DNA of 64,000 nt from Aromatoleum aromaticum EbN1 (GTDB lineage Bacteria; Pseudomonadota; Gammaproteobacteria; Burkholderiales; Rhodocyclaceae), in contig NC_006513.1 of NCBI RefSeq assembly GCF_000025965.1, positions 2,542,001 to 2,606,000 on the forward strand, written 5' to 3'. The position numbers were made by a program, and so were the translations under genes. Below, piece after piece: positions 3,386 to 20,784 of this stretch. The notes below the pieces were generated by a model. The model worked only from the letters and a program-made list of their open reading frames with translations. It had not been told where the DNA came from and did no database searches. How positions within the stretch are numbered: the stretch's first letter is position 1; every line of letters begins with the position of its first letter.

Positions 3386-3389
3386 GGGG

Positions 3390-3399
3390 CATTGCAGCC
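3390..3399. repeat. Target-site duplication, left copy
   Basis: The 10 bases cattgcagcc directly abut the left inverted repeat and are repeated exactly at 6218-6227. ISAs1 elements typically generate duplications of 8-10 bp. Confidence 0.9.
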
Positions 3400-3428
3400 C
3401 AGGGCAATCGCACCTAAAATGCATAACC
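3400..3428 (+). repeat. Left terminal inverted repeat of the ISAs1 element
   Basis: It begins CAGGGCAATCGCACC and ends CATAACC. Compared with the reverse complement of 6189-6217, the outer 15 bases differ at one position, the inner CATAACC is identical, and a 7-base middle block is not conserved. A CAGGG terminus is typical of ISAs1-family ends. Confidence 0.88.
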
Positions 3429-5891: not shown

Positions 5892-5894
5892 TGG

Positions 5895-5970
5895 GAGCGG
5901 TGTGAATCGAGAGGTTCACGCACCGTTCTGTGAGAGGCTGGGGGTGCGACTCCCCCGGCCTACTCGCCAT
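5895..5970 (+). ncRNA. Group II intron domains V and VI
   Basis: Domain V spans 5895-5928 (34 nt). Its lower stem GAGCGGTG pairs with CACCGTTC, the AGC catalytic triad is at 5896-5898, and a GAGA-type terminal loop closes the GTGAATC/GGTTCAC helix. Domain VI follows as a GAGAGGCTGGGGG / CCCCCGGCCTACTC hairpin with an unpaired A near its base, the candidate branch point. These are the ribozyme's active-site elements and both look intact. Confidence 0.85.
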
Positions 5971-6188
5971 CAGCTTCACTGGTCGCTCGATGTGCAGTTC
6001 AACGATGATCAGTCCCGTGTGCGCCGAGGCTATGCGGCCAACAACTTCGTGGTGCTGCGCCACATCGTACTGAACCTGCTGCGCCACAACACCACCCGCA
6101 AGGCCAGCATCAAGTCCAAGCGACTGCTCGCCTGCATGGAGGATGACTTTCGCGAAGAGTTACTCGGGCTGGCCATATGAGCGCCTCG

Positions 6189-6217
6189 GGTTATGACAAA
6201 ACGGTGCAATTGCCCTG
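6189..6217 (-). repeat. Right terminal inverted repeat of the ISAs1 element
   Basis: Read on the minus strand it begins CAGGGCAATTGCACC and ends CATAACC, mirroring 3400-3428. It starts 8 bp after the transposase stop codon. Confidence 0.88.
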
Positions 6218-6227
6218 CATTGCAGCC
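6218..6227. repeat. Target-site duplication, right copy
   Basis: An exact copy of the 10 bases at 3390-3399, immediately outside the right inverted repeat. Confidence 0.9.
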
Positions 6228-6270
6228 GCCATGCGGGCGCGTAGATTGTGCACTTGATGGTGAGGGGGCG

Positions 6271-7344
6271 ATGCAACGAACGAGTCGATTCCGATATCTG
6301 CTTCTGTTGGCGGTGCTGGTGGCGTGCCTTACCCTCGAGACTGCTTCTGCTCACGAATTCGAGCGGCTCTCGAATTCGACGCTGGGAAAAATCGCGTCAA
6401 AGCTGAAGCCGGGTGATTTTGTCGAGATTAACACCGAGCTTCCAGCAGGCATGGCAAGCCTTTCCGACCTGTTGCGTGTCCCAGTCGACGATGGCCGGCG
6501 GATGCTGATCGATCTCTGGACGGATTTAGCCCATTGGGATCCGAAACGTCATCGGACCTTTTTTATTGGGATCCGCAAGTACAAGAAATTCATTTCGTAC
6601 GATGCGGAGTCGAATGCGTGGCAAGTGCTGGGCTGGGAAGGCGAGCCTCCTCCGCAGCACGTGGAACTCGGGCACACATACGGTCGCACGGCACTGGACT
6701 CGACACGCGGCCACTATTATTGGCTCTCACCCGGTCAAATATTGAGCCGCTATTGGATCGACGAGGAGCGCTGGGAGGCCGTCCCCGGTGTAAAGATAGG
6801 CGGATACATCCCTATTGAGTGGCATGAGAAACTAGACATGCTTGTTGCGATTAACCGCGGCGGCAAGATGGTCGCTTTCAGCAAAGGTGAAACTAAGTCG
6901 ATTGGCGCGTCTGTCGTCGATGGCTATCATTCGGTCGGAAGTTATAACCGAACGCGCGGAGATATGTTATTCGCAGGTGGCAACGCTTCTCGTCGGAAGC
7001 TCGAGTTGATCGAAGCGGACGGTGATGTCCGCAGATTTAGAGACGCGCCGATTAATATCTCGGTCGCAAGAACAGCACTGTCTTATGACCCGAAGTCGGG
7101 CAACTATTTGTTTTTGCAGCGACAGGAGCGGCAGTTGCACGAGTTCAATCCTGATTTGGACGAATGGCGCCTTATAAGAGAATGGAGCGAGTCGGAGTGG
7201 CCGTTTGGGAAAGAGGGATCCTCTACCCCGGTGGTGATCGATGAACTGGGCGTAATATTCTGGCAATCTGAAATGGGGATTCGCGTTTACCGGCATAGAA
7301 GCGCCTTCGACAAGCCCGATCGCCGGCAATCGCTACCGAATTAG
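6271..7344 (+). CDS. Secreted protein of unknown function, exopolysaccharide locus
   Basis: A 357-residue protein that I do not recognise. I start it at 6271 because the earlier in-frame ATG at 6193 lies inside the IS inverted repeat, and because residue 1 onward gives a clean signal peptide (MQRTSRFRYLLLLAVLVACL, cleavage after about ETASA). The mature part has regularly spaced Trp/Tyr strand-like segments (YDAESNAWQVLG, DEERWEAVPG, FNPDLDEWRLI) that resemble beta-propeller or Kelch-like blades, about six in number. This is a structural guess. Codon use is less GC-biased than in the core genes. The next glycosyltransferase begins 23 bp later. It may be a periplasmic glycan-binding or glycan-modifying protein. 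Confidence 0.7.
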   Translation: MQRTSRFRYLLLLAVLVACLTLETASAHEFERLSNSTLGKIASKLKPGDFVEINTELPAGMASLSDLLRVPVDDGRRMLIDLWTDLAHWDPKRHRTFFIGIRKYKKFISYDAESNAWQVLGWEGEPPPQHVELGHTYGRTALDSTRGHYYWLSPGQILSRYWIDEERWEAVPGVKIGGYIPIEWHEKLDMLVAINRGGKMVAFSKGETKSIGASVVDGYHSVGSYNRTRGDMLFAGGNASRRKLELIEADGDVRRFRDAPINISVARTALSYDPKSGNYLFLQRQERQLHEFNPDLDEWRLIREWSESEWPFGKEGSSTPVVIDELGVIFWQSEMGIRVYRHRSAFDKPDRRQSLPN

Positions 7345-7367
7345 CGTCCGTGGAGCAGGAGCTAGCC

Positions 7368-8315
7368 ATGTTTGGTGTCGTCATCCCCTATTTTCAGCGG
7401 CGGAGCGGCGTGCTGGCGAGAACCCTGCAATCCGTCGCGCAACAGGACGTTGACGTGCCAGTATGCGTTGTGGTTGTGGACGACGCCTCTCCGGCTTCTG
7501 CGGAAGAAGAGGTCGGCAACGTCTGCTTTCCGAACAACTTCAGCGTTCGCATCATCAGGCAGGAGAATGCTGGACCGGGTGCGGCGAGAAATGCCGGGAT
7601 CGATGCGCTCGCTGACGTTGCCTATATTGCTTTTCTGGATTCAGATGATTGCTGGGAGCCCTATCATCTCAGTTCGGCCCTGCATGCCTTCGAGCACGGC
7701 TTCGACTACTATACTGCCGAAACTATGGATGGTGCATCGGGTTACCGGATGCACGCTAACCATTTCAGGGGGATGCTTCCTCTCAGATCCCATCCTTCCG
7801 CCCCTTGGGCGCAGGAGTTGATGCAGCCGCTTATCGATTTCACGGTTTGCGGGCCGATCTCGGGTTCGAGTACCTTCGTTGTGACGAAATCGTTGATCGG
7901 AGACACGAGGTTTCGTTGTGAACTCCGCACGGCCGGCGAGGATGGCTTATTCACGACTGAATTGGCAGCCAAGTCACCGAGGGTGATGATTTCAAGGCGA
8001 ACCGACACCGTTCTCGGCAAGGGTGTCAACATTTTCTCCGATGGCGACTGGGGTAGTGGTGCTTCCACACTGCGCGCGATCTACTTTCTTCGCTCGAGGC
8101 TGATGATGCGGCCGCTCGTGCAGCCGTTTCCGGTGGCACTCGACAAGGTCGACGCCCTGATTCGGCATGCGCGAAAGGAAGTGTGGAAAAGCGGGCTTGC
8201 GAATCTTCGTAGAGGGGGCTTTCCGTTGCGCGCGTTCGTAGAGGCCGTGCGCATGGACCCTCCACTACTTGGAGTTGGACCTGCCATATTTGCTGATGTG
8301 ATTCGCAGAAAATAG
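7368..8315 (+). CDS. Family 2 glycosyltransferase
   Basis: A 315-residue GT2 enzyme: FGVVIPYFQRRSGVLARTL at the N-terminus, VVDDASPAS near residue 37, NAGPGAARNAGID near 70 and the DxD-like FLDSDDCW near 90. I chose the ATG at 7368, which follows AGGAG by 5 nt, over an upstream GTG at 7350. There are no membrane segments. It probably adds one sugar to the lipid-linked repeat unit of this locus. It follows the secreted protein gene and precedes the asparagine-synthase-like gene in the same direction. Confidence 0.85.
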   Translation: MFGVVIPYFQRRSGVLARTLQSVAQQDVDVPVCVVVVDDASPASAEEEVGNVCFPNNFSVRIIRQENAGPGAARNAGIDALADVAYIAFLDSDDCWEPYHLSSALHAFEHGFDYYTAETMDGASGYRMHANHFRGMLPLRSHPSAPWAQELMQPLIDFTVCGPISGSSTFVVTKSLIGDTRFRCELRTAGEDGLFTTELAAKSPRVMISRRTDTVLGKGVNIFSDGDWGSGASTLRAIYFLRSRLMMRPLVQPFPVALDKVDALIRHARKEVWKSGLANLRRGGFPLRAFVEAVRMDPPLLGVGPAIFADVIRRK

Positions 8316-8409
8316 ACCGTTCGTCGCCGGCGGCTAGCATTGATGCTCGGCCGCAATTCGAGCATCGCTCGGGTTCGCCCCGTCGTTTCCTGGAGAAGTA
8401 TGGGGATTT

Positions 8410-9825
8410 ATGGCAATTGTCGAAGCGTCCGAACGAAGGTTTTGCGGTGCGTTATCGCATCGGCTGCAGGCGGATGCGACGACCGCCGGACCCTCCTTGA
8501 CATGCGGCTGGCGCTGCACTGACGGAACGCTTGAGGCGGTTTCGGACCGGTTAGGATTCATCCCACTCTTTTACTGGAGCGAAGGCGAGAAACTGCTGCT
8601 CTCGGATTCGATCCGCGAGCTCGCGCGTCGCCTGCCGCGGGTGCGTTTCGATGATCGCGCCGTCGCCGCATATCTGAGGCTCGGCTACTACATTGGGGAC
8701 ACGACCCTCCTCGACGGGGTACGAGTGCTTCCTCCCGACTCCACGCTCATTTGGGATGGCACGCTCGCCATGCGGGAAAAGACACAACATCCCCCTGCCG
8801 TCTTTGCAGGGAACCGCGACGAGGCCGTCGACGAATATATTCGGCTCTTTTCGAGCGCGATTTCGACGCGACTTACGCCACAGATCGGCCGACTTACCCT
8901 CTCGGGCGGGCGGGATTCGCGACACATCCTACTGGAACTGCACCGGCAAGGCGCGTTACCCCATGATGTGGTGACGCTTAGGCGGCGGAACTCGACCGAC
9001 GACATTGCAGCGGCCGACCTCGCTGAGCGGCTCGGCTTGCGCTGCATCGTTGCGGAAGGCGTGCTTGACGCTTTCGAGGTCGAAGCAGTCAAGAACCGGA
9101 TGAATTTCTACATGGCCGATGAGAACGGCTGGTACGTTCATCTTCTGGACCATCTTGATGGCCCTGTTTTCGACGGTCTTGCGGGCGACGTACTGTCGAA
9201 TGGCCTTTATTTCGTTGGCGAGGTCGCAGATTTGATCGATACGGGCGCTTTCGACGATGCGGCAAGGCTGTTCGTGCGCAAGCACGGTGGTTATCTGAGC
9301 TATCTGTCCGACGAAGGGCGGCAGAGGTTTTCCGATGAACTCGCGGAGGACCTCATCTCGCAGGAATTTGCGCGGCACCGTGGGATGGCGAACCCGGTGC
9401 AGTCATTTGTATTCTGGAACCGCACCCGGCGGGAAATCGCCCTGCTTCCGATAGGGATGGCCCGGAGCCGGGTCGATACGTTGCTGCCGTACACCGATCC
9501 CGATTTGCTGGCGTTCTTTCTGTCGCTGCCGCATACAGTGTTCGGTCGGCAAGGTTTTCATGATGAAGTGATCGGCAAGGCGTATCCGTCCTTCGCCGAT
9601 GTCGCTTTTGCCGAGAAGCGGAAACCTTCATACCGTTTTTCGGAGCGAATCGTCTATTCGGTGAGAGCGTCGAAAAAACTTGTGGGCCGCTTTGCCTCCT
9701 GGCCGCGGATTCTGTCGTATGCGGGTGCGGTTGTTGCGGGCGGGAGCCTTAAGCCCTTGGAGAACCCATTTTCGCGCCTGTACCCGTTGCTGCAGGCGCG
9801 AGATGAACTCGGAATCGAACTTTGA
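8410..9825 (+). CDS. Asparagine synthase-like protein lacking the glutaminase nucleophile
   Basis: A 471-residue protein with the C-terminal asparagine-synthetase ATP-pyrophosphatase domain. The PP-loop LSGGRDSRHIL lies near residue 163, and AADLAERLGLRC and FDGLAGDVLSNGLYF follow. The N-terminal about 110 residues keep only the later part of the class II glutaminase fold (DRLGFIPLFYW, LLLSDSIREL). The required Cys2 is absent (it begins MAIVEAS), so glutamine hydrolysis is not expected. Such proteins recur in surface-polysaccharide loci and may amidate or ligate an amine to a sugar acid. That role is an inference. It converges on the minus-strand gene ending at 9828. Confidence 0.78.
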   Translation: MAIVEASERRFCGALSHRLQADATTAGPSLTCGWRCTDGTLEAVSDRLGFIPLFYWSEGEKLLLSDSIRELARRLPRVRFDDRAVAAYLRLGYYIGDTTLLDGVRVLPPDSTLIWDGTLAMREKTQHPPAVFAGNRDEAVDEYIRLFSSAISTRLTPQIGRLTLSGGRDSRHILLELHRQGALPHDVVTLRRRNSTDDIAAADLAERLGLRCIVAEGVLDAFEVEAVKNRMNFYMADENGWYVHLLDHLDGPVFDGLAGDVLSNGLYFVGEVADLIDTGAFDDAARLFVRKHGGYLSYLSDEGRQRFSDELAEDLISQEFARHRGMANPVQSFVFWNRTRREIALLPIGMARSRVDTLLPYTDPDLLAFFLSLPHTVFGRQGFHDEVIGKAYPSFADVAFAEKRKPSYRFSERIVYSVRASKKLVGRFASWPRILSYAGAVVAGGSLKPLENPFSRLYPLLQARDELGIEL

Positions 9826-9827
9826 GC

Positions 9828-11585
9828 CTATCGGCTACGAGCCGGAGAGGACAAATGCAATTCCAGGGCGGGAAGATGTTCCCCGTCTTCCGCGCAGCAC
9901 GGCGGCTGCGTGCAGACGTATGCTTGCGGAAGGCTCGCGTCGAGTTTCGAAGAGAGGCAATCGCAGTCGTGGTTAACCGCTGTCGCTATCCCTGCAGTCG
10001 CGATCCGACTGCGGCTGGCTGGATTCAGATAGGTAAGCGGTTTCCCGGTCCCGGAGATTTCGAGGTGCCGCCTGATGACGATGGTGCCGGCGCTTTCGCG
10101 CATTTGCAACGTCATCCTACCGGCGAGAAGTGTCGACGTTCTTCGGGTCAGTGCAGCGCGGCGGCCCAAACGCCCCCCTAATGCGCGCCAATCGAGAATC
10201 GCGATCAGGCGCTGCAGAAAACCCGATGGCGCCGCGCGGAATACTGCGCTCGCGAAGCCTTCCAGGCGGAGCGTGAAATCGCCATCGTCGAGGTCGGCCT
10301 GAACCCCCTCGAAGCGGTCGAGTGCAATGATTTCCTCGCCGAATCGGAACAACGGTGTCCAGCCCGCGAGTGCAGGCGTTTCCATTAGCCGGGTTCGTGC
10401 CACCCGAACCGGGGGAGGGATAAGCGGCGGGCCGTCAGCGAGCCTGAGGTGGAGGATCGCTCCGCCGGAGTAGCGAAAATCCGCTTCGGTTCGGCTGAAT
10501 GACTGCGGGGGCTGTCCTCGCGTCGAAACAAGGGCGTTGAGGCCGTCGGGCGAGCGCAGGTAGATCAGACCCGCTTCCTCGTCATGGAAGAAGCCGGCGC
10601 GCGCGGCAATCCAACGTGTGCCCCGCAGCGTTTCGGGAAGGGGGCGCGCTCTTCGCATCTGCCGGGCGGCGCCAATGATAGCTGCAGCCCACGCGTTGTA
10701 CACCGAAAGGTGCATATAGCCGTCCCAACTAGCGTTGCCGGATTCAGGTCCCGCCGGGTTCAGCCATAGAAAACCGTCCGGACGGCTCTGCGATACCAGG
10801 CGTCGGCAAATGGCGCGAATCGGATCGTCCTCGCTGTCATGCTCGACGCCCATCAGAATCAATGCCGCGACGAGGCAGCCGTCGCCGAAAAGCGAATGCG
10901 TGCTGCGCCCGAAACCGCCCGCGTAGCCGGCCGGGTCCCAACAGTGAACCATCCAGTCGAGCAGCCGGCGCGCTCGGTGCGCCAGTCCCGCATCGTTGTG
11001 AAACCAGCATGCGAGGGCGGCGAGGAACAACGCCTTGTGATGGTAAGCGAGCGGCGTGGAGAAGCCGGTGCCCGGGTTTTCGGGGAAGTCGATGAAGGCC
11101 CCTTTCGTCGTCGTCCAGCGGTCCAGCAGGATGCAGAGACGCTGCGTTTCGATCGGTCGTCGATCGGCGGGAGCCTCGATAACGCGGCAGGTTTGCGCGA
11201 GCAGGCTCCAGTTGTTGGATGGATACCGTGGTCGCAGCGCGCAACGTTTGAGCCCTGCTTCCAGCAACGGCCTATCACGGTCGCGTTCTTGGTCGGACAG
11301 AATCAACTGCATCAGCAACAGCATCAAGCGATTGAACGGTTCGTGGCCGAGGCTTCGCGTGTCGAGGGCGAGCCATGCCTTTAGCGCGCGTTTTCCGTGC
11401 TCCCAATCTTCGGGCAGGCCCGCGGCAAGTGCCAATGCGGCCGCGGTGTGTCCATAGTGATCTGCAGGGCTGGGCCTCTGTTCGAATGTGTCGTAGAGCC
11501 CGGTGTCCGGGCGGAGGTTGTTGCGGAGCGCAGAATTGAGCCCCAGTAGCAGTGCCGTGAGTTCGGTCGGCATGTCGAAGCTCAT
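9828..11585 (-). CDS. Uncharacterised polysaccharide-locus protein, possibly (alpha/alpha)6 fold
   Basis: A 585-residue soluble protein without a signal peptide. The start at 11585 overlaps the deacetylase stop as ATGA; a longer frame to 11741 would run inside that gene. The first about 350 residues are helical, with repeated aromatic/His-rich turns (DTFEQRPSPADHYGHTAAAL, YAGGFGRSTHSLFGDG, GNASWDGYMHLSVYNAW), reminiscent of the toroid found in glycoside hydrolases and polysaccharide lyases. The rest is beta-rich (FHDEEAGLIYLRS, FRYSGGAILHLRLADG), as in heparinase II/III-like sandwiches. I cannot identify catalytic residues, so I do not name an enzyme. It is the last gene of a coupled CapK-deacetylase operon, which suggests work on the same glycan. 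Confidence 0.7.
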   Translation of the reverse strand: MSFDMPTELTALLLGLNSALRNNLRPDTGLYDTFEQRPSPADHYGHTAAALALAAGLPEDWEHGKRALKAWLALDTRSLGHEPFNRLMLLLMQLILSDQERDRDRPLLEAGLKRCALRPRYPSNNWSLLAQTCRVIEAPADRRPIETQRLCILLDRWTTTKGAFIDFPENPGTGFSTPLAYHHKALFLAALACWFHNDAGLAHRARRLLDWMVHCWDPAGYAGGFGRSTHSLFGDGCLVAALILMGVEHDSEDDPIRAICRRLVSQSRPDGFLWLNPAGPESGNASWDGYMHLSVYNAWAAAIIGAARQMRRARPLPETLRGTRWIAARAGFFHDEEAGLIYLRSPDGLNALVSTRGQPPQSFSRTEADFRYSGGAILHLRLADGPPLIPPPVRVARTRLMETPALAGWTPLFRFGEEIIALDRFEGVQADLDDGDFTLRLEGFASAVFRAAPSGFLQRLIAILDWRALGGRLGRRAALTRRTSTLLAGRMTLQMRESAGTIVIRRHLEISGTGKPLTYLNPASRSRIATAGIATAVNHDCDCLSSKLDASLPQAYVCTQPPCCAEDGEHLPALELHLSSPARSR

Positions 11586-12568
11586 CCGCCGGCACTTCGG
11601 GGCTGGACGAGCGTGCGCAGCAATCGCAGGGCGAAACGCGCAGGAGTTCTGTCCCAGGGAGTAAAACGCGGCAACTGATGGATGTCGCAGTGCCGGTCTG
11701 CGACGGCAGGGCGCGTCGACACCGCGACGTCGAAACCGCATTCGGAAATCATCGCGACGTGCTCCTGGCCGTAATCCTTGACCGGCCTGCCGTTCGGGTA
11801 GGCGAAGACGCGTATCGCGGTGCCCAGCAGAGCCTCGAGTTTTTCCTTTCCCAGACAGATCTCCGCTCGGGCTTCGGCCGGCGACTGGAGCGCGAGAATC
11901 GGGTGGGAGTGGGTGTGGCCGCCGATTTCCATTCCCGATGCGTGGAGTGCCTTGAGCTGGCGGCTCGACATCATCAGGTCGGTTGGAAGATCGATGTCGA
12001 AAGTTTCGGCCAGTCTTTCGGCTGCGGGTATCCGTTCTTCGGGAGGGCGGTATTTGAAATATCCAAGCAGGGTGCCGGCCAGCGCTTGACGATCGGCGAT
12101 CGAAACGAGGTCGACCGCGCCCAGGCCGATTGATGAAAGATTGCAGATCCCCTCGGGCAAGCCCCGGACGACCTCGATGAGCGTGTCGTTGAACATGCGC
12201 CCGCCATCGAGGTAGGCGGTGGAAATGAAGAACGTAGCCGAAATGCCGAATTCCCGGAGAATCGGCAGCGCCGTCGTGTAGTTGTCGGCATAGCCGTCAT
12301 CGAAGGTGACGCAGGCTGCCCGAGCCGGTAGGCAACGCTCCCGAAGGCGCAAGGCGGCCTCGTGCAGCGGCAGAACATTGAAATGGCGGGAAAGCAGGCG
12401 CATCTGCCAGCGAAACGTGTTGGCGTCGGGGTCGCCCAGGCGCAACGGGTCGGCGTCGGGTAGGACGCGATGAAAGATGAGGATGCATAATTTTGCCCCT
12501 GCTCCCGCGGGGGAGGCCAGCGAGAGGACGGTCTTCAGACCGGGAATCTTCGGGTCGGGAGCCCTCAT
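11582..12568 (-). CDS. Polysaccharide deacetylase (NodB domain)
   Basis: A 328-residue carbohydrate esterase family 4 protein. Motif 1 is TFDDGYAD near residue 90 (catalytic base and metal Asp), motif 2 is GGHTHSHP near 217 (metal-binding His pair), and FAYPNGRP near 255 is motif 3. ILIFHRVLPD near residue 29 is the usual N-terminal strand. It would remove N-acetyl groups from amino sugars of a glycan. No clear signal peptide is present, although a glycan deacetylase often acts outside the cytoplasm. It overlaps the CapK-like gene upstream and the unknown gene downstream by 4 bp each (ATGA), so all three are translated together. Confidence 0.88.
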   Translation of the reverse strand: MRAPDPKIPGLKTVLSLASPAGAGAKLCILIFHRVLPDADPLRLGDPDANTFRWQMRLLSRHFNVLPLHEAALRLRERCLPARAACVTFDDGYADNYTTALPILREFGISATFFISTAYLDGGRMFNDTLIEVVRGLPEGICNLSSIGLGAVDLVSIADRQALAGTLLGYFKYRPPEERIPAAERLAETFDIDLPTDLMMSSRQLKALHASGMEIGGHTHSHPILALQSPAEARAEICLGKEKLEALLGTAIRVFAYPNGRPVKDYGQEHVAMISECGFDVAVSTRPAVADRHCDIHQLPRFTPWDRTPARFALRLLRTLVQPRSAGG

Positions 12569-13959
12569 AAGTTCTCCTGTGCGCCGACGTTGTCCGTCGG
12601 CTCGCTCTGCCCGCGCTCGACATTACAGATGATATGGCGGAACTTGCCGTTGGGTTCGGGTGGAATTTCGGGCAGTTGCGCGATTTCCACCTGTACGGAA
12701 GCGCCAAGCAGGGTGTGAACATGCCGAGTCAGCGCGGACCTAACGGCGTCGGGCAGAGGTGTCCGTGTCGCAAGCGTGATACGGATGTATTGGCGTGACT
12801 CCTGAACGATACGATAGGCTTCGAGGTCACGAAGCTCGCGCAGGGCGTGATTGATGGCGCTGCCGTGAACCCAGCTTCCGTCGGCTGCAACAAGACCGTC
12901 ATTCGTGCGTCCGCTGATCGACTGGATCAGTGGCAGGCCGCGACCGCAGGCGCATCGGGCATCCGAGAGAACGCCGCGATCGCCGGTGCGATAGCGGATG
13001 AAGGGAAATTCCGGTCCGGCGAAGTTGGTGATCACGATATCGCCCTCGGTTCCCGGCTGGAGTCTCTTCCCATCGTCATCGACCACTTCGACGATTACTT
13101 CCTCCGCCGTGACGTGCAGGCCACCATGCTGACACTCCCGGGCAATGAACCCGGCGTCCCGGGCGCCATACTCGTTGGCGACCCCACATCCGAAGACCTG
13201 GCCGATCGCCTCGCGCCATTCCGGGCGCAACACCTCGGAGGTGCAGAAGGCGACGCGGATGCCGACATCGTCCATCCTGAGGCTTCGTTCGCGGGCGCGA
13301 AAGGCGATGCGGGAAAGTGCGGACGGGTAACCGAACAACATTCTCGGTCGGAACGTCCGTATGTCCGCGAGGATGCGATCGATGCGGTCTGGGCTGAGGT
13401 CTCGCGCCGGCACCAATCGCGAGCGGAACAGGCGATCACGCAGTGCGCGGAGGCGATCCTGTGCGCCGATTTCCAGCGGCGAGCTCCATAGGACCATCTC
13501 CCGGTCGCCGATGTCCACGTCCCACCAGCGAGTGGCGCGCCATTTGGCCGCAATGTCGAAGCTGATTCGGTGACTCCCGAGCAGGAAGCTCAGTGGCTCT
13601 CCGGAAGAACCGCTGGTACTGTGGCGGGCAAGTGCTCCTCCATCTTCCGCCTTCCATTCGTCAAAGTTACTGCGGATGACGTTTTTGTCGATCAGCGGGA
13701 GCGCGTTGAGGCCGTCGCGTGTGACGAAATCGGCGATGGTGAGCCCATTCGCGCGAAAATGTTTGCGGTAAAACGGAACGGAGTTGGATACCGCGACGAG
13801 CATGTTCCGCAAGCGAGCCATCTGAAGGTCCGCGAGGTGGTCTTGCGAGTACCACTGGCTCCGCTCAAGCTCGCGCAGGATCCCCGGGGTATCGTGGCCC
13901 TTGAAGTGCTCATGCAGCGGAAACAGCAACGTACTGACGATCTTCGGATAGAGGGTCAT
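12565..13959 (-). CDS. CapK / phenylacetate-CoA ligase-like adenylate-forming protein
   Basis: A 464-residue member of the phenylacetate-CoA ligase (F390 synthetase/CapK) family. The ATP loop is HSTSGSSGEPLSF, NEYGARDAG is the A5-like motif, and YRTGDRG is the A7 motif with the ribose-binding Asp. A CACGRGLPLIQSISGR segment follows, then the C-terminal subdomain. In-frame ATGs at 14028 and 13959 are both possible. I prefer 13959 (MTLYPKIVS) because homologous proteins start near this point, and the ribosome-binding signal is weak for both. CapK homologues sit in capsule and exopolysaccharide clusters, and their acyl substrate is unknown. It heads the three-gene minus-strand operon. Confidence 0.82.
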   Translation of the reverse strand: MTLYPKIVSTLLFPLHEHFKGHDTPGILRELERSQWYSQDHLADLQMARLRNMLVAVSNSVPFYRKHFRANGLTIADFVTRDGLNALPLIDKNVIRSNFDEWKAEDGGALARHSTSGSSGEPLSFLLGSHRISFDIAAKWRATRWWDVDIGDREMVLWSSPLEIGAQDRLRALRDRLFRSRLVPARDLSPDRIDRILADIRTFRPRMLFGYPSALSRIAFRARERSLRMDDVGIRVAFCTSEVLRPEWREAIGQVFGCGVANEYGARDAGFIARECQHGGLHVTAEEVIVEVVDDDGKRLQPGTEGDIVITNFAGPEFPFIRYRTGDRGVLSDARCACGRGLPLIQSISGRTNDGLVAADGSWVHGSAINHALRELRDLEAYRIVQESRQYIRITLATRTPLPDAVRSALTRHVHTLLGASVQVEIAQLPEIPPEPNGKFRHIICNVERGQSEPTDNVGAQENL

Positions 13960-14117
13960 GAACGGAATTGTATGGCTGACATGGGGGACTAGGGGCTGAC
14001 CAAAGGCTTCAGCTCGCCTCTGACTCATTGTTCGCCTATTGTATGATGAACAGAAATCTGCGCGGGTAGGAACGGCTGCCCGATGTGCAACATCACGACC
14101 GGGAGCGGGATCAAGCG

Positions 14118-14777
14118 ATGAAGAAGACTTATCGGGGCCTCCATTACCCTCTTACGTTCTTTGCGCTCTTCGGCGCCTTTCAGCTGGTGTATGCACAGAG
14201 CTCGATGTGTGGCAATCCTTTCACCAAGGCCGGCAACGGCCCTTACGATTTCCGTACCGCGGAGCCCGGGAAGCGAAGTGTCGTAGAGAATGCGCACTTC
14301 ACTGCCGACGTCCAGACAATGCGACGGGGAGCCTCAACCAAGAATCTGGCGGCGGACATTGCGTACACCTTGAAAGTGATGCCCAATCATCACCAGGCGC
14401 TTCTTACGATGGGCAACTGGTCGCTGAAAACCGGAAGCAATCCTCCGATCGGCGCGGAATACACCGTGGAGTGCTGGTTCGACCGCGCCTTGCGGTATGC
14501 ACCTGACGATGCAATGGTGAAAGTGGTATACGGCATTTACCTGATCAAGCGCGGGAAGCCCCAGGAGGCCGTTAATCAGCTCGAAGCTGCACTGTCTCAG
14601 GCTGGCGACAACGCAAATGTCCATTACAACCTCGGCCTCGCCTACGTCGATCTGAAGCAGTACGACAAGGCATTGGAAAGCGCCCATACCGCTTACCGAC
14701 TCGGTTTTCCCTTGCCAGGATTGAAAAACAAGCTGGCGCGGGCGGGTGCGTGGCGGGAACTCCCCACGACAAAGTAA
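14118..14777 (+). CDS. Secreted TPR-like protein
   Basis: A 219-residue protein with a signal peptide (MKKTYRGLHYPLTFFALFGA, cleavage after about VYAQS). The mature part has tetratricopeptide-like helices: DDAMVKVVYGIYLIKRGKPQ near residue 133 and NVHYNLGLAYVDLKQYDKAL near 172, a classic TPR consensus. The start at 14118 follows GGGAGCGGGATC; the earlier ATG at 14085 would spoil the signal sequence. It is divergent from the CapK operon. Secreted TPR proteins are common scaffolds in exopolysaccharide export. No specific role can be assigned. Confidence 0.8.
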   Translation: MKKTYRGLHYPLTFFALFGAFQLVYAQSSMCGNPFTKAGNGPYDFRTAEPGKRSVVENAHFTADVQTMRRGASTKNLAADIAYTLKVMPNHHQALLTMGNWSLKTGSNPPIGAEYTVECWFDRALRYAPDDAMVKVVYGIYLIKRGKPQEAVNQLEAALSQAGDNANVHYNLGLAYVDLKQYDKALESAHTAYRLGFPLPGLKNKLARAGAWRELPTTK

Positions 14778-15246: not shown

Positions 15247-15250
15247 ATGA
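15155..15250 (+). CDS. Candidate 31-residue leader ORF overlapping the MBOAT start
   Basis: ATG at 15155 directly follows the preceding TAA. The frame ends with TGA at 15248-15250, overlapping the MBOAT start (ATGA). The peptide (MTKAECVGPDAPLRLGLRQG...) has no recognisable motif. The position would allow translational coupling into the large gene. Its GC content is similar to its surroundings, so chance is a fair alternative. Confidence 0.22.
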   Translation: MTKAECVGPDAPLRLGLRQGRNVNDVKGKSR

Positions 15251-17781
15251 ACTTGACGGCGGTTATCGATAGGAGGTCCGGTCGCCTCGCCGGTGACGAG
15301 GTGCAACCGGGGCAGATCGATCTCGCGAACTATCTGATCGTCGTTGCGCAGCTCGGACTCCTGCTCCTGCTGCTGCGCCAGTTCCAGATCGAGTCCGCCG
15401 CGTTCTTGCGGCTCGCGATGCTCGCTTTTGCCGGTTTCGCAGTCCACGCATGGCTGCCCCTGCGCATGCGCATGCCGTTCTTCGTGATGCTCAGCTTCGC
15501 AGGCATCGGTGTGGTCATGGGCGGCGTCAACGCGGCATGGCTCGTCGCGATCGGATTGGTCCTGCTCGGTATCTGCCACTTGCCGGTGTCCTTCGCGTGG
15601 CGGGGAGCATTGCTGCTGGGTGTCGCAGGCGTTCTCGCGCTGCAGCGCGCCGGCCTCCTGCCGTTTCCATGGTCGGACGCGATCTGGCCGATCCTCGGCG
15701 CGATGTTCATGTTCCGCCTGATCGTCTATTTCTACGATCTGCGCCATGACAAGACGCCGACCACGCCGGCGCAGTCGCTCGCTTATTTCTTCATGCTGCC
15801 GAACGCCTGCTTTCCCCTTTTTCCGGTCATCGACTACAAGACCTTCCGCCGCAACTATTTCGATGACGATGCCTATCGCATTTACCAGGTCGGCATCGAC
15901 TGGATGGTGCGGGGCGTGATCCACCTGATCCTGTACCGCATCGTCTACTACTATCTGACGCTCGCCCCGCACGAAGTGGGCAATCCAGCCGAGCTGATCC
16001 AGTACCTGGTGGCCAACTTCCTCCTGTACCTGCGGGTGTCCGGCCTGTTCCACCTGATCATCGGCATGCTCTACCTGTTCGGCTTCCGCCTCCCCGAAAC
16101 GCACAACCGCTACCTGCTGGCTTCGAGTTTCACGGACTTCTGGCGGCGCATCAACATCTACTGGAAGGAGTTCATGCAGAAGATCTTCTATTACCCGGCA
16201 GTGTTCAAGCTGCGCAAGCTGGGTACCGAGAAGGCGCTTGTCATCGCGACGCTGTACGTCTTCCTGATGACATGGTTCCTGCATGCCTACCAGTGGTTCT
16301 GGCTGCGTGGATCGATGCTCCTGGTCGCACAGGACATGTTGTTCTGGGGCATCCTCGGCGTGCTGGTGGTCGCCAATTCGCTCTACGAGATGAAGCACGG
16401 ACGCGTCCGCAGCCTGGGGACGCCCGTGCGCACCTGGCGCACGACTGCCGCGCTCGTGCTCAGGACGTATGCGACATTCTGGTTCATTTGCGTGCTGTGG
16501 TCGTTCTGGACCACCGAGTCGCTTGAGGCGTGGTTCTCGTTGTGGTCGGCGCTCGGCGGGGAATATACCGCCGAACTGTTGCTGTATCCGTCCGTCGTGC
16601 TCGCGGTCATCGTCCTCGGTTCGATCCCGCGCGAAGCGGTGCGGAACGTGCGCGCGTCGGAACAGGACGATCGGGTGTGGATGAGGAGCAGGGTGGTTAC
16701 CGTGGCGTCCCTGTGCGCGCTCATCGCGGTCAGCGTGGAAGGGTTGCATTCCCGGATCGGCACCGATTTCGGGACCTTCGTCCACTCGGTGCGCTCCGGT
16801 CAGCTCAGCCGCCTCGACACCGCAAAACTGGAGCGGGGTTATTACGAAAACCTCCTGTCGGTCGATCGCTTCAACTCCCAATTGTGGGAGGTGTACATGA
16901 ACAAGCCGAAGAACTGGCTGGATGTCGAAAGCACGAATCTGAAGCGCTTCGTCGGCGGTTTCGCGCAGACCGAACTGATTCCATCCTTTGTCCGGACGAC
17001 CCGGCACGGCACGATCAGCATCAATGAATACGGCATGCGCGATCGTGATTACGAACGGCTGCCGGCGCCGGGCACCTTCCGTGCGGCCGTGTTGGGCGCA
17101 TCCTCGGTCATGGGCTGGGGTGTCGGCGACGGGCAGACGTTCGAGACGCTGGTCGAGGACAGGTTGAACCGGGAACGGACCGGCAACTTCGCCAGGTACG
17201 AGTTGCTCAATATGGGCGTGCCCGGCTATCAGCCGCCGCAACAGCTGGTGATGGCGGAGAAGGCTTTCGGCTTCGAGCCGCATGCGATCTTTTACATCGC
17301 GGCGGGACGCGAGATCACGCGCTCCGTGGCCTACCTCGCGGAGGCCACCCACAAGGCTCTCGACATTCCCTACGAGGGTCTGCGTGATATTTCGGCCAAG
17401 GCGGGCGCCACCAGCGGGATGGACGAAGACGAGGCGCGCAAGCGCCTGACGCCGCATGGTCGCGAGATTCTCAGCTACGTCTACGGCCGCATCGCGGAGG
17501 AGTCGCGAAAACGTGGCAGCGTGCCGGTGTGGATTTTCCTGCCGCAGGTACGGGAAGGCGTGTGGCAGGAAGAAACTCCAGAGACCCTCGCCATTGCGGA
17601 GGCGGCGGGCTTCGTCGTGATCAATCTCGAGGATGTCTACAAGGGCCGCAACATCAACGAGATCCGACTGGCGGAGTGGGACGACCACCCGAACGTGCCC
17701 GGTCACGAGTTGATCGCGGAACGAGTCTTCAACGGTCTGGCGGAAAAGCGCGAGGCCATTTTTCAGCCCGTTGGGCACTGA
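15247..17781 (+). CDS. MBOAT O-acyltransferase fused to an SGNH/GDSL domain (DltB-DltD-like)
   Basis: An 844-residue two-part protein. Residues about 25-520 form a polytopic MBOAT acyltransferase, with YFYDLRHDKTP near 160, FPLFPVIDYKTF, SSFTDFWRRINIYWKEFM near 297, and the predicted catalytic His346 in MTWFLHAYQWFW. After a final membrane segment (about residues 480-500), the soluble C-terminal part carries SGNH blocks: LGASSVMGWG near 615 (block I Ser), NMGVPGYQPP near 657 (block II Gly) and DDHPNVPGH near 811 (block V Asp/His). MBOATs move acyl groups from a cytoplasmic donor to an extracytoplasmic acceptor, and SGNH partners such as DltD complete transfer. It starts the operon with a carrier protein, a ligase and a dehydrogenase. 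Confidence 0.85.
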   Translation: MNLTAVIDRRSGRLAGDEVQPGQIDLANYLIVVAQLGLLLLLLRQFQIESAAFLRLAMLAFAGFAVHAWLPLRMRMPFFVMLSFAGIGVVMGGVNAAWLVAIGLVLLGICHLPVSFAWRGALLLGVAGVLALQRAGLLPFPWSDAIWPILGAMFMFRLIVYFYDLRHDKTPTTPAQSLAYFFMLPNACFPLFPVIDYKTFRRNYFDDDAYRIYQVGIDWMVRGVIHLILYRIVYYYLTLAPHEVGNPAELIQYLVANFLLYLRVSGLFHLIIGMLYLFGFRLPETHNRYLLASSFTDFWRRINIYWKEFMQKIFYYPAVFKLRKLGTEKALVIATLYVFLMTWFLHAYQWFWLRGSMLLVAQDMLFWGILGVLVVANSLYEMKHGRVRSLGTPVRTWRTTAALVLRTYATFWFICVLWSFWTTESLEAWFSLWSALGGEYTAELLLYPSVVLAVIVLGSIPREAVRNVRASEQDDRVWMRSRVVTVASLCALIAVSVEGLHSRIGTDFGTFVHSVRSGQLSRLDTAKLERGYYENLLSVDRFNSQLWEVYMNKPKNWLDVESTNLKRFVGGFAQTELIPSFVRTTRHGTISINEYGMRDRDYERLPAPGTFRAAVLGASSVMGWGVGDGQTFETLVEDRLNRERTGNFARYELLNMGVPGYQPPQQLVMAEKAFGFEPHAIFYIAAGREITRSVAYLAEATHKALDIPYEGLRDISAKAGATSGMDEDEARKRLTPHGREILSYVYGRIAEESRKRGSVPVWIFLPQVREGVWQEETPETLAIAEAAGFVVINLEDVYKGRNINEIRLAEWDDHPNVPGHELIAERVFNGLAEKREAIFQPVGH

Positions 17782-17803
17782 TCGATTCCAAGGCGAGGCA
17801 GCG

Positions 17804-18061
17804 ATGGAAACAGGTGTGGACTTCAGCAAGGCCGTCAAGGACTACATTCTCGAGGAATTTCTGCCGGGCGAGAATCCGGATGAACTGACCGATGACCTGC
17901 CGCTGATCAGCGGCGGCATCCTCGATTCGATCGCCACGCTCAAACTGGTTCTGCATTTCGAGGAGCAGTACGGCATCGTGCTCGAAGCCCACGAGGCAGA
18001 CAAGGAACACCTGGACACGATCCGCAGCATCGCCAGTCTCCTCGCATCCAAGGCGAGGTAG
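17804..18061 (+). CDS. Stand-alone acyl/peptidyl carrier protein (DltC/PltL-like)
   Basis: An 85-residue acidic carrier protein. Ser42 in GGILDSIATLK is the phosphopantetheine site, and a second acidic helix follows (FEEQYGIVLEAHEAD). I chose the ATG at 17804, 22 bp after the MBOAT stop, preceded by GGCGAGGCAGCG; an ATG at 17771 would overlap the MBOAT gene. The adenylation enzyme starts 6 bp after its stop. By analogy with PltL/RedO or DltC it should carry an aminoacyl thioester loaded by that enzyme. This is an inference from gene order. It is distinct in sequence from the exosortase carrier at 441. Confidence 0.85.
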   Translation: METGVDFSKAVKDYILEEFLPGENPDELTDDLPLISGGILDSIATLKLVLHFEEQYGIVLEAHEADKEHLDTIRSIASLLASKAR

Positions 18062-18067
18062 CGCGCC

Positions 18068-19636
18068 ATGTCGAACCCACGCCCGCTGCATCAATTCCTC
18101 TGCGACACGGCCGCCCTCCATCCGTCGCATACTGCAGTCGTCGAGCCTGGCCGAGGGTTGATCAGCTATGTCGCGCTGGACGAGTTGTCCGATCGACTGC
18201 GTGACCGGCTCGTCGCCATCGGCGTGCGGCCCGGCGACCGCGTCGGCATCTACCTGCGCAAGTCGATCGACGCCGTCGCTGCGATCTACGGCATTCTCAA
18301 GGCAGGTGCCGCCTACGTGCCGGTCGATCCCGACGCACCACCTGCGCGCAACGCCTACATCATGCACAACTGTGCGGTGCGGGCGGTCGTCATGGAGAGG
18401 CGCCTCGAGGATCGCTTCTCCACCGAGTTTTTCGCGCTCGGAGAGCTGCCGCCTTTGCTGCTGCTCGACGGGACGGGTGGTGGTGGTCCGCTCGCCCGCA
18501 TGCTGGACGAAGCGGACGCGCAGCGGCCGGCCGCGGTGACGAAGAACGCGATGTCGCCGCCCGAAGATCTCGCCTACATCCTCTACACGTCGGGCTCGAC
18601 GGGAAAGCCGAAGGGCGTGATGCTCTCGCACGAGAACGCCGTGAGTTTCGTCGACTGGTGTTCCGCGGTGTTCGAACCGCAGCCGGATGACCGCTTCTCG
18701 TCTCACGCGCCGCTGCACTTCGACCTCTCGATCCTCGACATCCATGTCGCCCTCAAGCACGGCGCGACCCTCGTGCTGATCCCGGAGGAACGGGGCAAGG
18801 ACGCGCTGCATCTGGCCAGGCTGATTTCCGAGGAAAGGATCAGCATCTGGTACTCCGCGCCGTCGATCCTCAGCCTGATGGCGCAGTTCGGCGACCTCCA
18901 CAGCCAGGACTGCTCTTCGCTGCGCCTCGTCCTGTTCGCGGGCGAGGTGTTCCCGGTCAAGCATCTCCGGACGCTGTGTTCGCAGTTGCCGGAACCCCGC
19001 TATTTCAACCTCTACGGCCCGACCGAAACCAACGTCTGCACCTACTACGAAGTTGTTCCGCCGGTGTCTGACGAGCGTACGTCGCCCTATCCCATCGGCA
19101 AAGTGTGCGAGCACCTGCGTGGCAAGGTCGTCGACGAGCACAACGCGCCGGTGAAGCCGGGAGAAGAGGGCGAACTGTGCATTACCGGCAGCGGCGTGAT
19201 GCAGGGTTACTGGTCGTTGCCGGAGCGCAGCGCGGAAAGCTTCCTCGTCGATAACGACGGAACGCGCTGGTACCGGACCGGCGACATCGTCGTCGAAGCA
19301 GCCGACGGAAACCATATCTACCGCGGCCGGCGCGACCGCATGGTCAAGCGGCGCGGCTACCGGGTCGAGCTCGGTGAAATCGAGGCGGGGCTGTATCAGC
19401 ATCCGCTGGTCAAGGAGGTTGCCGTCGTCGCCGTGCCGGATGCCGAAGCGGGTGTGCGGATCAGCGCATTCCTGAGCAGCAAGGGGACGGACAAGGCCTC
19501 CCTGATCGAACTCAAGCGCTTCTGCGCGGAGCGGATACCGCTGTACATGATCCCCGACCATTTCAAGTGGCTCGATGCCCTGCCGAAAACGTCGACGGAC
19601 AAGACGGACTACCAGCGACTCAAGGAGCTGGGCTGA
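18068..19636 (+). CDS. Amino acid adenylation enzyme (DltA/prolyl-AMP-ligase-like)
   Basis: A 522-residue stand-alone A domain. Core motifs are the P-loop YTSGSTGKPKG (residues about 173-183), HAPLHFDLSILD with Asp219 in the position that binds the alpha-amino group of amino acid substrates, FNLYGPTETN, YRTGDIV, and the C-terminal Lys512 in STDKTDY. The preserved Asp argues for an amino acid rather than a fatty acid. The SSHAPLHFDLSI phrasing is what I recall from prolyl-AMP ligases such as PltF and RedM, but DltA-type alanine activation is the alternative. It lies directly downstream of its presumed carrier and overlaps the dehydrogenase start (TGATG). Confidence 0.85.
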   Translation: MSNPRPLHQFLCDTAALHPSHTAVVEPGRGLISYVALDELSDRLRDRLVAIGVRPGDRVGIYLRKSIDAVAAIYGILKAGAAYVPVDPDAPPARNAYIMHNCAVRAVVMERRLEDRFSTEFFALGELPPLLLLDGTGGGGPLARMLDEADAQRPAAVTKNAMSPPEDLAYILYTSGSTGKPKGVMLSHENAVSFVDWCSAVFEPQPDDRFSSHAPLHFDLSILDIHVALKHGATLVLIPEERGKDALHLARLISEERISIWYSAPSILSLMAQFGDLHSQDCSSLRLVLFAGEVFPVKHLRTLCSQLPEPRYFNLYGPTETNVCTYYEVVPPVSDERTSPYPIGKVCEHLRGKVVDEHNAPVKPGEEGELCITGSGVMQGYWSLPERSAESFLVDNDGTRWYRTGDIVVEAADGNHIYRGRRDRMVKRRGYRVELGEIEAGLYQHPLVKEVAVVAVPDAEAGVRISAFLSSKGTDKASLIELKRFCAERIPLYMIPDHFKWLDALPKTSTDKTDYQRLKELG

Positions 19637-20784
19637 TGGACTTCGCCTATTCGGAAGAGCAGAAGCTCCTGCGCGACAACATCATCAAATTCGCCCGCGG
19701 CTCGCTCAATGCGCATGTTGTCGAGCGCGATCGCGAGCAGGTCTTTTCCCGCGACCTGTGGCGAGAATGTGCCAACGTCGGCATTCAGGGCCTGCCGGTT
19801 CCCGAAGCGTATGGCGGGACCGGTCTCGATGCCTTGTCGTGCGCGATGGTGCTGGAGGCGCTGGGCTATGGGTGCAGGGACGGTGGACTCGTGTTTTCGC
19901 TGTGCGCCCACCTGCTCGCATGTGTGGTGCCGGTATGGCGGCACGGCAGCGAGGAACAGAAGCGCCGTTATCTGCCGGGGCTGTGCGACGGCACCTTGGT
20001 CGGCGCCCACGCGATCACCGAACCCGATTCCGGTTCGGATTCCTTTTCGATGCGCACCCATGCCGAGCGCGACCGCGACGGCTGGCGCATCAACGGCACC
20101 AAGACATTCATCTCCAACGGTCCGGTCGCCGACGTTGCGGTGGTGTTCGCGGTCACCGAACCGGCCAAGGGTTTTCACGGCGGAGTGACCGCGTTTCTCG
20201 TCGAAAGCGATACCCCCGGTTTTTCTGCGGGACAGAAGTTCGAGAAGCTCGGGCTGCGGACGTCGCCGGTTGGAGAACTGGTGTTCACCGACATGTATGT
20301 TTCACCATCGGCCGTGCTCGGTCAGGTCGGGGGCGGCTCCGCCGTGTTCTCCACGGCGATGGACTGGGAGCGCTGCCTGTTGGTCGCGAGCCATGTCGGA
20401 ACCATCGAGCGGCTCCTCGAGACGTCAATCTCCTACGCACGCACGCGCAACCAGTTCGGCCAGGCGATCGGAAAGTTTCAGGCCGTGGCGCACAAGATCG
20501 CCGACATGAAGGTCCAACTCGAAGCCGCGCGGCTGCTCGCTTACCGCGCTGCGTGGCGGCTCGAGAACCTGCGCAACGCATCGCTGGATGCCGCAATGGC
20601 AAAGCTGATGGTCAGCGAATCCCTGCTCCGGACCGCCCTGGACACAGTCCATCTGCACGGCGGCTACGGCTATATGGTCGAGTACGAGGTCGAGCGCGCG
20701 TTGCGTGACGCGGTCGGCAGCACCATCTATTCAGGCACCTCCGAGATGCAGCGCAACATCATTGGACGCTGGCTCGGGCTGTAG
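19636..20784 (+). CDS. Acyl-CoA dehydrogenase-family flavoenzyme, prolyl-carrier-protein dehydrogenase-like
   Basis: A 382-residue ACAD-fold protein starting at the ATG that overlaps the ligase TGA (TGATG), so translation is coupled. FAD-binding segments are present: AITEPDSGSDS near residue 126, the ARTRNQFG region near 276, and HGGYGYMVEYEVER. The MCAD-type catalytic Glu is missing (YSGTS, Ser366). Instead Glu245 in AMDWERCLL aligns with the isovaleryl-CoA-dehydrogenase-type base. That arrangement, with the MxWER and SGTSxMQ phrases, is shared by PltE/RedW-type enzymes that oxidise prolyl-carrier protein to pyrrolyl-2-carboxyl-carrier protein. Oxidation of another carrier-bound acyl group cannot be excluded. 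Confidence 0.82.
   Translation: MDFAYSEEQKLLRDNIIKFARGSLNAHVVERDREQVFSRDLWRECANVGIQGLPVPEAYGGTGLDALSCAMVLEALGYGCRDGGLVFSLCAHLLACVVPVWRHGSEEQKRRYLPGLCDGTLVGAHAITEPDSGSDSFSMRTHAERDRDGWRINGTKTFISNGPVADVAVVFAVTEPAKGFHGGVTAFLVESDTPGFSAGQKFEKLGLRTSPVGELVFTDMYVSPSAVLGQVGGGSAVFSTAMDWERCLLVASHVGTIERLLETSISYARTRNQFGQAIGKFQAVAHKIADMKVQLEAARLLAYRAAWRLENLRNASLDAAMAKLMVSESLLRTALDTVHLHGGYGYMVEYEVERALRDAVGSTIYSGTSEMQRNIIGRWLGL

Follow-up and report, generated by a model that had tools for sequence, protein, structure and literature searches.

A four-gene operon in Aromatoleum aromaticum EbN1 that may couple prolyl-carrier pyrrole chemistry to MBOAT-SGNH acyl transfer onto a surface glycan

Introduction

Which acyl group would a membrane acyltransferase deliver to the cell surface when its gene is followed directly by a prolyl-carrier pyrrole module? 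The question is raised by a stretch of 64,000 nucleotides from Aromatoleum aromaticum EbN1 (contig NC_006513.1, positions 2,542,001 to 2,606,000; the whole stretch is called the window here), in which four plus-strand genes stand head to tail at 15247-20784 and encode an MBOAT-SGNH fusion, a carrier protein, an adenylation enzyme (the ligase) and a dehydrogenase. The last three recall the type II prolyl-carrier modules PltF/PltL/PltE, PigI/PigG/PigA, RedM/RedO/RedW and Bmp4/Bmp1/Bmp3. We consider it reasonably probable that the operon is a Dlt-like, carrier-dependent MBOAT/SGNH pathway that decorates a surface glycan with a pyrrolyl group made from proline.

Results

The genes occupy 15247..17781 (MBOAT-SGNH fusion, 844 residues), 17804..18061 (stand-alone carrier, 85 residues), 18068..19636 (prolyl-type ligase, 522 residues) and 19636..20784 (prolyl-carrier-type dehydrogenase, 382 residues, with its ATG at 19636). 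They are spaced by 22 nt, then 6 nt, and finally overlap by 1 nt, so that co-transcription of all four appears likely. This arrangement agrees with an earlier reading of the same DNA (the original prediction), which had described a single operon of these genes. The carrier frame opens at TTG 17771, and its likely true start is ATG 17804, which fits the 82-90 residues found in 52 of 72 homologous carriers; counted from there, the phosphopantetheine site is Ser42 within GGILDSI (codon 17927-17929), as had been proposed. Pfam recognizes PP-binding (PF00550) in the carrier at 22.3 bits against a cut-off of 20.8, AMP-binding in the ligase at 300.6 bits, and three Acyl-CoA_dh domains above cut-off in the dehydrogenase. 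The gene set is not a chance grouping, because the same set recurs in other genera and phyla.

The ligase is of the prolyl type. Its best single-stretch match in the PDB is 6o6e at 366 bits, labelled L-proline-[L-prolyl-carrier protein] ligase, which we take to be PltF; the next single-stretch match reaches 256 bits, and multi-module entries outscore 6o6e only through summed domains. Over the pocket region alone, 6o6e is outright first (166.6 bits). The specificity code, located by sequence motifs at what are presumably the GrsA positions, reads DLLYLALVCK, and the nine positions that can be aligned to 6o6e (DLLYLALVC) are all identical; Asp219, singled out in the original prediction, is confirmed. 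Among the ligases of 59 relatives, 42 are identical at the nine positions, 16 carry one change and 1 is truncated, a count over 59 of the 62 ligase hits with L077, L097 and L107 (23-26% identity) set aside; L031 and L043 are the same contig and enter twice here and in the dehydrogenase counts. Nine further ligases, 53-63% identical, show the prolyl code with no more than a single position altered. Seven controls, namely six same-genome adenylation enzymes (31-35% identical) and the XrtA ligase of this genome, have different pockets, for example DALWLGGTFK and DASTATMRAK. We are therefore confident that this enzyme activates proline.

The operon shares the logic of the Dlt pathway (ligase, carrier, MBOAT, SGNH), which invites the alternative that it is a D-alanylation or fatty-acylation system whose ligase has been misassigned. 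The scores speak otherwise: the ligase reaches 277.4 and 270.5 bits on the two NCBIfam DltA models, whose cut-offs are 476 and 559.85, and DltC is matched at 30.3 against 68. The model for the XrtA-associated acyl-CoA ligase, TIGR03098, gives the ligase 275.6 bits against 592.35, and the genome's true ligase of that type is a separate gene at 856.9 bits. Fatty-acyl models, like those for DltA, stay far below their cut-offs; the code is that of the prolyl ligase, and it is hard to see what a dedicated dehydrogenase would do with D-alanine. With curated cut-offs unmet and a prolyl-type pocket, we rejected both readings, which we regard as very improbable. An ornithine-lipid reading was rejected as well: the nearest NCBIfam model of the carrier is NF052616 (122.7 bits, below its cut-off of 130), but none of the window genes scanned had a match to an OlsH or OlsI model, which leaves a kinship of the carrier only. 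OlsH needs no carrier protein, according to the accessible part of PMC12493201.

The dehydrogenase points in the same direction as the ligase. Its best PDB match is 4irn (labelled prolyl-ACP dehydrogenase, 405 bits), followed by 5zw0 (labelled L-prolyl-carrier dehydrogenase) and 6cxt (labelled butyryl-CoA dehydrogenase); we take these to be AnaB, whose two-electron chemistry would stop at pyrroline, and the pyrrole-forming PltE and Bmp3, respectively. The alignment took 48 of 56 hits, leaving out 8 that were fragments or below 45% identity, and the tree built with the quick mode of IQ-TREE held 57 rows after omission of 13 near-duplicates, with branch support from the Shimodaira-Hasegawa-like approximate likelihood ratio test (SH-aLRT) only. 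One clade of 53 rows, with an SH-aLRT of 100, unites the MBOAT-linked enzymes entered, the enzyme of genome G132, 4irn, 5zw0 and 6cxt; four ordinary acyl-CoA dehydrogenases fall outside, one of them (L105, 34%) itself on an MBOAT locus. All 53 of 53 rows have the isovaleryl-type catalytic glutamate, Glu245 in the window protein (codon 20368-20370), and none has a Glu at the medium-chain-type position. The solved natural-product dehydrogenases branch inside the MBOAT-linked clade of this tree, in which most rows were collected by way of the MBOAT gene and several branches are long, so that the direction of descent is not fixed. NCBIfam ranks PigA first and RedW second. Pocket, carrier domain and dehydrogenase clade thus agree on what had been suspected from the sequence, namely that the last three genes are the known prolyl ligase, carrier and prolyl-carrier dehydrogenase trio. 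As far as they can be computed, both outcomes that the original prediction had named as refuting it, another pocket specificity and a grouping with ordinary acyl-CoA dehydrogenases, failed to appear.

Does this dehydrogenase go all the way to the aromatic ring? Oxidation could stop at two electrons, with a pyrroline (dehydroprolyl) or even an intact prolyl group being transferred as in the anatoxin route. Since 4irn, a two-electron enzyme if it is AnaB, is both the best PDB match and nested in the clade, the sequence does not fix the product, and an attempt to decide between two and four electrons by the tree fails, both kinds lying within the clade. Four draft genomes, which may be incomplete (G306, G309, G313 and G318), have a prolyl-type ligase and no such dehydrogenase at E<=1e-80, as this alternative would allow. 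On the other side, 5zw0 and 6cxt, taken to be pyrrole-forming, sit in the same clade, and the Bmp2-like halogenases found near related modules (see below) need an aromatic ring. We regard an early stop as unlikely, and pyrrole rather than pyrroline as the likely product in this strain.

The 844-residue protein is invisible to Pfam and NCBIfam as an MBOAT. The Pfam model PF03062 matches neither this protein (E<=1) nor the whole genome (E<=0.001), no Pfam domain lies above cut-off anywhere in it, and NCBIfam returns a single weak SGNH/GDSL match over residues 587-661 (20.5 bits against a cut-off of 325). An AlphaFold model was built from an alignment of 58 MBOAT sequences, which were chosen by hand, sometimes share a contig and reach down to 37% identity; its mean predicted local distance difference test score (pLDDT) is 85.0 and its predicted template modelling score 0.81. 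Foldseek places DltB first among PDB structures (8jem, E 5.6e-8; 6bug), then HHAT and PORCN, and further down the SGNH enzymes TesA (E 4e-4), CEX and PatB (7tjb, E 4.6e-3). Because of these matches to DltB-type and SGNH structures, the modelled protein is assigned as an MBOAT fused to an SGNH domain, with a membrane domain at residues about 20-500, a linker at about 505-565 and the SGNH domain at about 566-840. The original prediction had seen here the DltB/DltD side of D-alanylation; it was right in kind, as the folds are those of DltB and of SGNH enzymes, and has to be amended in that both reside in one polypeptide lacking the FXYXXF motif.

The catalytic residues expected of such a protein are conserved among the 58 homologues, a statement that has to be read with the way the loci were found, through the peptide patterns INIYWK[DE] and HAYQWFW, so that Asn303 and His346 were partly selected for; of the aligned sequences, 44 contain just the first pattern, 5 just the second, 8 the two together and 1 neither. 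Asn303 (16153..16155), presumably at the spot that usually holds the first His of bacterial MBOATs, is invariant in 58 of 58, which says little because 52 of these sequences contain the pattern that includes it; the other six all keep it. His346 (16282..16284), the candidate MBOAT catalytic histidine, is likewise invariant (58/58); it falls in the search pattern of 13 homologues and is kept in 45 of 45 without that pattern, 44 of which have INIYWK only and 1 neither. Outside both patterns lie the linker motif Gly531-Tyr532-Tyr533 (GYY; 16837..16845), the SGNH nucleophile Ser619 (17101..17103) and His814, each invariant in 58 of 58; Asp812 of the catalytic Asp812-x-His814 (17680..17688) is kept in 57 of 58. 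The SGNH signature is therefore present, with the Ser of block I and the Asp and His of block V conserved.

Family-averaged loop charges put loops 168-208, 277-303, 385-396 and 459-474 inside. Helices 442-458 and 475-496 precede the linker and SGNH domain, which are thereby predicted to lie outside. According to the part of PMC12148441 available to us, PatA is acylated on the Tyr of an FXYXXF motif near its C-terminus, in a part with two membrane helices absent from DltB, and DltX has the same motif. The linker tyrosines match the PatA shuttle Tyr in position and invariance and differ in motif, in a stretch where the model is unreliable. By this analogy, GYY is, by a slight balance, the candidate acyl shuttle. 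We hold it very likely that the MBOAT-SGNH protein accepts the group bound to the carrier.

If the two modules work together, their genes should travel together, and the original prediction that the trio is coupled to the MBOAT-SGNH protein can be followed into other genomes. The MBOAT alignment was scanned against one genome per species (84,980 species) and found 211 relatives, of which the loci of the 79 closest were kept. These 79 loci come from Pseudomonadota, Deltaproteobacteria, Acidobacteria, Gemmatimonadetes, Planctomycetes, Verrucomicrobia, Anaerolineae, Hydrogenedentota, Rhodothermales/Rhodothermaceae and KSB1, and draft genomes of Thauera and Accumulibacter are among the carriers of MBOAT relatives. 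With ligase and dehydrogenase hits taken at >=45% identity and carrier hits at >=35%, the 40 loci flanked by 6 kb or more in each direction have within 8 kb a carrier in 38 cases, a ligase in 36, a dehydrogenase in 35 and all three in 35, counts over loci that are not independent, several being close kin (seven Mesorhizobium, for example). In 34 of the 79, MBOAT, carrier, ligase and dehydrogenase genes follow one another strictly in this order on a single strand within 6.5 kb.

Within the order, the dehydrogenase is present at E<=1e-100 in 6 of 300 genomes. Five of the six have the MBOAT gene at least in part: this genome, three with a full-length or nearly full-length MBOAT and one with an end at a contig edge; the sixth, G132, lacks it. 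The MBOAT gene itself occurs in 6 of 121 genomes of the family and in 2 of 398 of the phylum, this one included in both. Among ten more genomes, each of the 6 MBOAT carriers (five from the family and one from the phylum) had the dehydrogenase, as against 0 of 4 genomes without the MBOAT gene, these four being all of the family. From these counts and the shared occurrence of the dehydrogenase, the four-gene module is uncommon, has a broad but patchy distribution, and its genes tend to stay together.

Variants of the layout were also seen. An MBOAT-SGNH gene and a carrier stand beside a different adenylating enzyme in L077 (3231-5957), L097 (12561-14619) and L107 (4534-5723); the L077 enzyme combines AMP-binding, carrier and thioesterase domains in one 807-residue protein, and that of L107 was seen only as a 26% hit. 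This arrangement suggests that the same export machine takes other acyl cargoes. Three MBOAT-SGNH genes stand in tandem with the module in L086 (9060-18382, the third in two frames) and L075 (1685-10159), perhaps one per acceptor site.

The oxidation state of the cargo is also touched on by flavin-enzyme genes of one homology group that, by clustering of flanking open reading frames (ORFs), flank five of the loci. NCBIfam ranks the halogenase CmlS first for all eight of these enzymes, far below its cut-off (125-157 against 900), and Pfam reports Trp_halogenase for the one gene tested (L052). In the PDB, the best match is 5bva, labelled flavin-dependent halogenase, for the second gene of L086 (282 bits), the first of L101 (262) and the first of L114 (237); the next different enzyme reaches 165, 134 and 153 bits, a lead of 84-128 bits. 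We take 5bva to be Bmp2, which would halogenate a carrier-bound pyrrole. The comparison covered these three genes and that of L052, with L083 and the first L086 gene outside it; the L052 gene was rejected as a halogenase, its best match being 3nix, labelled flavoprotein/dehydrogenase. L114 has the order MBOAT-SGNH, exchanger-like gene, two halogenases, carrier, ligase and dehydrogenase; L086 has carrier, ligase, two flavin enzymes and MBOAT-SGNH genes; L101 has a dehydrogenase truncated at the contig edge, followed by MBOAT-SGNH, carrier, exchanger and two halogenases. Matches to the L086 halogenase at E<=1e-50 occur in 10 of the 50 MBOAT-carrying genomes searched (50 of the 79 loci), 6 of them, L086 included, at >=44% identity. 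Because Bmp2-like halogenases stand near the module, an aromatic pyrrole on the carrier is likely in those lineages, all of them relatives only; no such halogenase was found among the window genes scanned.

Two side observations concern these neighbourhoods. Antiporter-type genes adjoin the halogenase-like genes in L101 (3722-5035), L114 (8068-9510), L169 (2059-3345) and L083 (4300-5604); Pfam finds Na_H_Exchanger in those of L101 and L169, and two members of the L114/L083 set match too. In G318, locus L168 (169-8348) encodes a ligase with the code DLFYLALVCK, a weakly matching carrier (31%) and two Bmp2-like halogenases, and after these an acyltransferase-3 (AT3) protein and ATP-binding-cassette exporter genes with a Wzt domain. 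This is a parallel arrangement with another membrane acyltransferase, and possibly a second route to halopyrrolyl-decorated polysaccharide.

What would receive the acyl group? The annotation of the surroundings, which covers part of the ORFs, reveals 16-55 kb upstream of the operon a set of XrtA-type exopolysaccharide genes, all above NCBIfam cut-offs (XrtA/PEP-CTERM export protein, chain-length determinant, exosortase A, glycosyltransferase, O-glycosylation ligase, decarboxylase and ligase). Between these and the operon lie glycosyltransferases, a flippase-like protein (below its cut-off) and a polysaccharide deacetylase. The nearest surroundings (2318..14777) contain glycosyltransferases at 2318-3385 and 7350-8315, an asparagine-synthase-like gene at 8410-9825, and on the minus strand a 637-residue ORF at 9828-11741 (DUF2264 at 11.5 bits against the Pfam cut-off of 25, and no NCBIfam match at E<=0.01), the polysaccharide deacetylase at 11582-12568 and a PaaK-type AMP ligase at 12565-14028, followed by a TPR protein at 14085-14777. 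At other loci the commonest flanking family is again glycosyltransferases (group 1/4 in 12 and group 2 in 3 of 101 ORFs), in a sample of 101 out of 162 ORFs picked by eye, some surely spurious, and taken without a background control.

An acceptor other than a glycan has been considered in the light of this context. Carrier trios of this kind are best known from antibiotics and toxins, and the operon might accordingly make an exported metabolite, the acyl group being passed to a small molecule, a lipid or a protein outside the membrane. The neighbours at L032, which do not resemble polysaccharide genes (judged from ORF starts only, with no family search), would suit such a product. Against it stand the 34 of 79 loci in strict order, with no further biosynthetic genes in between, the glycosyltransferase neighbours and the XrtA genes; the MBOAT/SGNH pairs described in the accessible part of PMC12148441, moreover, modify cell-envelope polymers. 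We judge an exported metabolite improbable, slightly more so than an early stop of the oxidation, and a surface glycan to be rather probably the target.

The polysaccharide region of the window includes genes for a DDE transposase and for a group II intron reverse transcriptase (3520-5891). In the nearest named relative, Aromatoleum anaerobium (L044), the dehydrogenase is 100%, the ligase 95% and the MBOAT protein 86% identical. Nucleotide identity in 300-nt steps is 73-99% across the operon and drops to 41-53% just upstream, which places the operon at the border of a variable region. Along the operon it is about 73-89% in the MBOAT gene and rises to 90-99% in the ligase and dehydrogenase genes, a pattern that looks like that left by recombination inside the operon.

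Discussion

What each protein is, the ligase pocket of proline type, the clade of the dehydrogenase, the conserved catalytic residues and the recurrent linkage are observations; from them we infer the oxidation state in this strain, the acyl-tyrosine step and the acceptor, and propose the following route. The ligase would activate L-proline and load it onto the Ser42 phosphopantetheine of the carrier. The FAD enzyme would then oxidise the prolyl group on the carrier, a four-electron step to pyrrole-2-carboxyl being the most likely; before transfer, some relatives would halogenate the carrier-bound pyrrole with a Bmp2-like enzyme. On the cytoplasmic side, the MBOAT domain would take the acyl group from the carrier and, with His346, pass it to a Tyr of the GYY in the periplasmic linker. 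Lastly, the fused SGNH domain would receive it on Ser619 and esterify a hydroxyl of the extracytoplasmic acceptor; the most likely one is a sugar unit of the exopolysaccharide specified by the XrtA-type genes in the vicinity.

Several observations weigh against this proposal. FXYXXF is absent from the window protein and found in 0 of 58 homologues between residues 459 and 600, and no search was made for a separate DltX-like microprotein; residues 531-546, GYY included, are modelled at a pLDDT below 50. The second solved proline ligase, 7thn, scores 217.9 bits on the ligase, below several non-proline enzymes, and the PigA and RedW cut-offs are not reached by the dehydrogenase (445.7 against 500 and 432.1 against 650), which is therefore near but outside these equivalogs. 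As to linkage, among 22 genomes (25 of 29 loci) without a dehydrogenase on the MBOAT stretch, 12 have one elsewhere at E<=1e-80 and 10 have none; among 15 (18 of 24 loci) without a ligase there, 9 have a prolyl-type ligase elsewhere (55-63%) and 6 have none. G132 (L122) carries a ligase (46%, prolyl code with one change) and a dehydrogenase (51%) with no MBOAT match in its genome, G169 has a contig-edge MBOAT piece and no dehydrogenase at E<=1e-100, and some MBOAT-carrier pairs, in L077 and L097, adjoin other ligases. L114 alone combines all five genes (MBOAT, carrier, ligase, dehydrogenase, halogenase) on a single stretch; no dehydrogenase was seen in the L086 draft genome and no ligase on the L101 stretch.

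How, then, does the operon relate to known systems? With the Dlt pathway (DltA, DltC, DltB, DltX and DltD), which D-alanylates teichoic acids, it shares a carrier-bound aminoacyl donor, an adenylating ligase, an MBOAT of the DltB fold (8jem, 6bug) and an SGNH partner. It differs in its proline-type ligase, its extra dehydrogenase, the union of MBOAT and SGNH in one protein, the lack of FXYXXF and its occurrence in Gram-negative and other phyla. With the type II prolyl-carrier pyrrole module it has in common the ligase pocket, the stand-alone carrier, the dehydrogenase clade and, in some relatives, a Bmp2-like halogenase; here, however, a membrane transferase replaces the known offloading steps, and the genes keep cell-surface company. 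Clorobiocin and coumermycin carry a pyrrolyl ester on noviose. Their carrier-made pyrrole-2-carboxyl is likewise esterified to a sugar, although their acyltransferases are soluble and their product is a small molecule. The resemblance to PatA/PatB and other MBOAT/SGNH pairs lies in the invariant Tyr after two further membrane helices and in the catalytic His and Ser; PatA, according to PMC12148441, uses acetyl-CoA and such pairs work without a carrier, in contrast to the carrier, the single polypeptide and the GYY in place of FXYXXF found here. The operon works like Dlt and like the PltF/L/E module and, by full definitions, is a member of neither. The sponge oroidin pathway, which runs via CoA thioesters, is a different system according to the accessible part of PMC12833800, which also reports that small-thiol thioesters of proline are highly unstable. 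In the open-licence literature, which leaves out most subscription papers, we found no description of such an MBOAT-SGNH/prolyl-trio system, in line with the original prediction that no described system couples the two modules.

We entertain only tentatively the wider idea of a multi-phylum, one-piece MBOAT-SGNH decoration system, in which pyrrolyl or halopyrrolyl groups would pass via a GYY acyl-tyrosine onto glycans, and from inside whose older cell-surface family the pyoluteorin, anatoxin and bromopyrrole dehydrogenases would have branched.

If the proposal is correct, Dlt would gain a counterpart in a second MBOAT/SGNH pathway that depends on a carrier protein, the other MBOAT/SGNH pathways in the available part of PMC12148441 working without a carrier protein. 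Bacteria are described there as combining an MBOAT with a free-standing SGNH protein or as having AT3 and SGNH fused, and the MBOAT-SGNH fusion is not among these layouts; it would offer a one-polypeptide model for the passage of acyl groups across membranes. The pathway would place an aromatic heterocycle on a surface polymer and tie antibiotic-type chemistry to the cell envelope, and it predicts pyrrolyl and halopyrrolyl glycans in environmental bacteria, Aromatoleum, Thauera and Accumulibacter among them.

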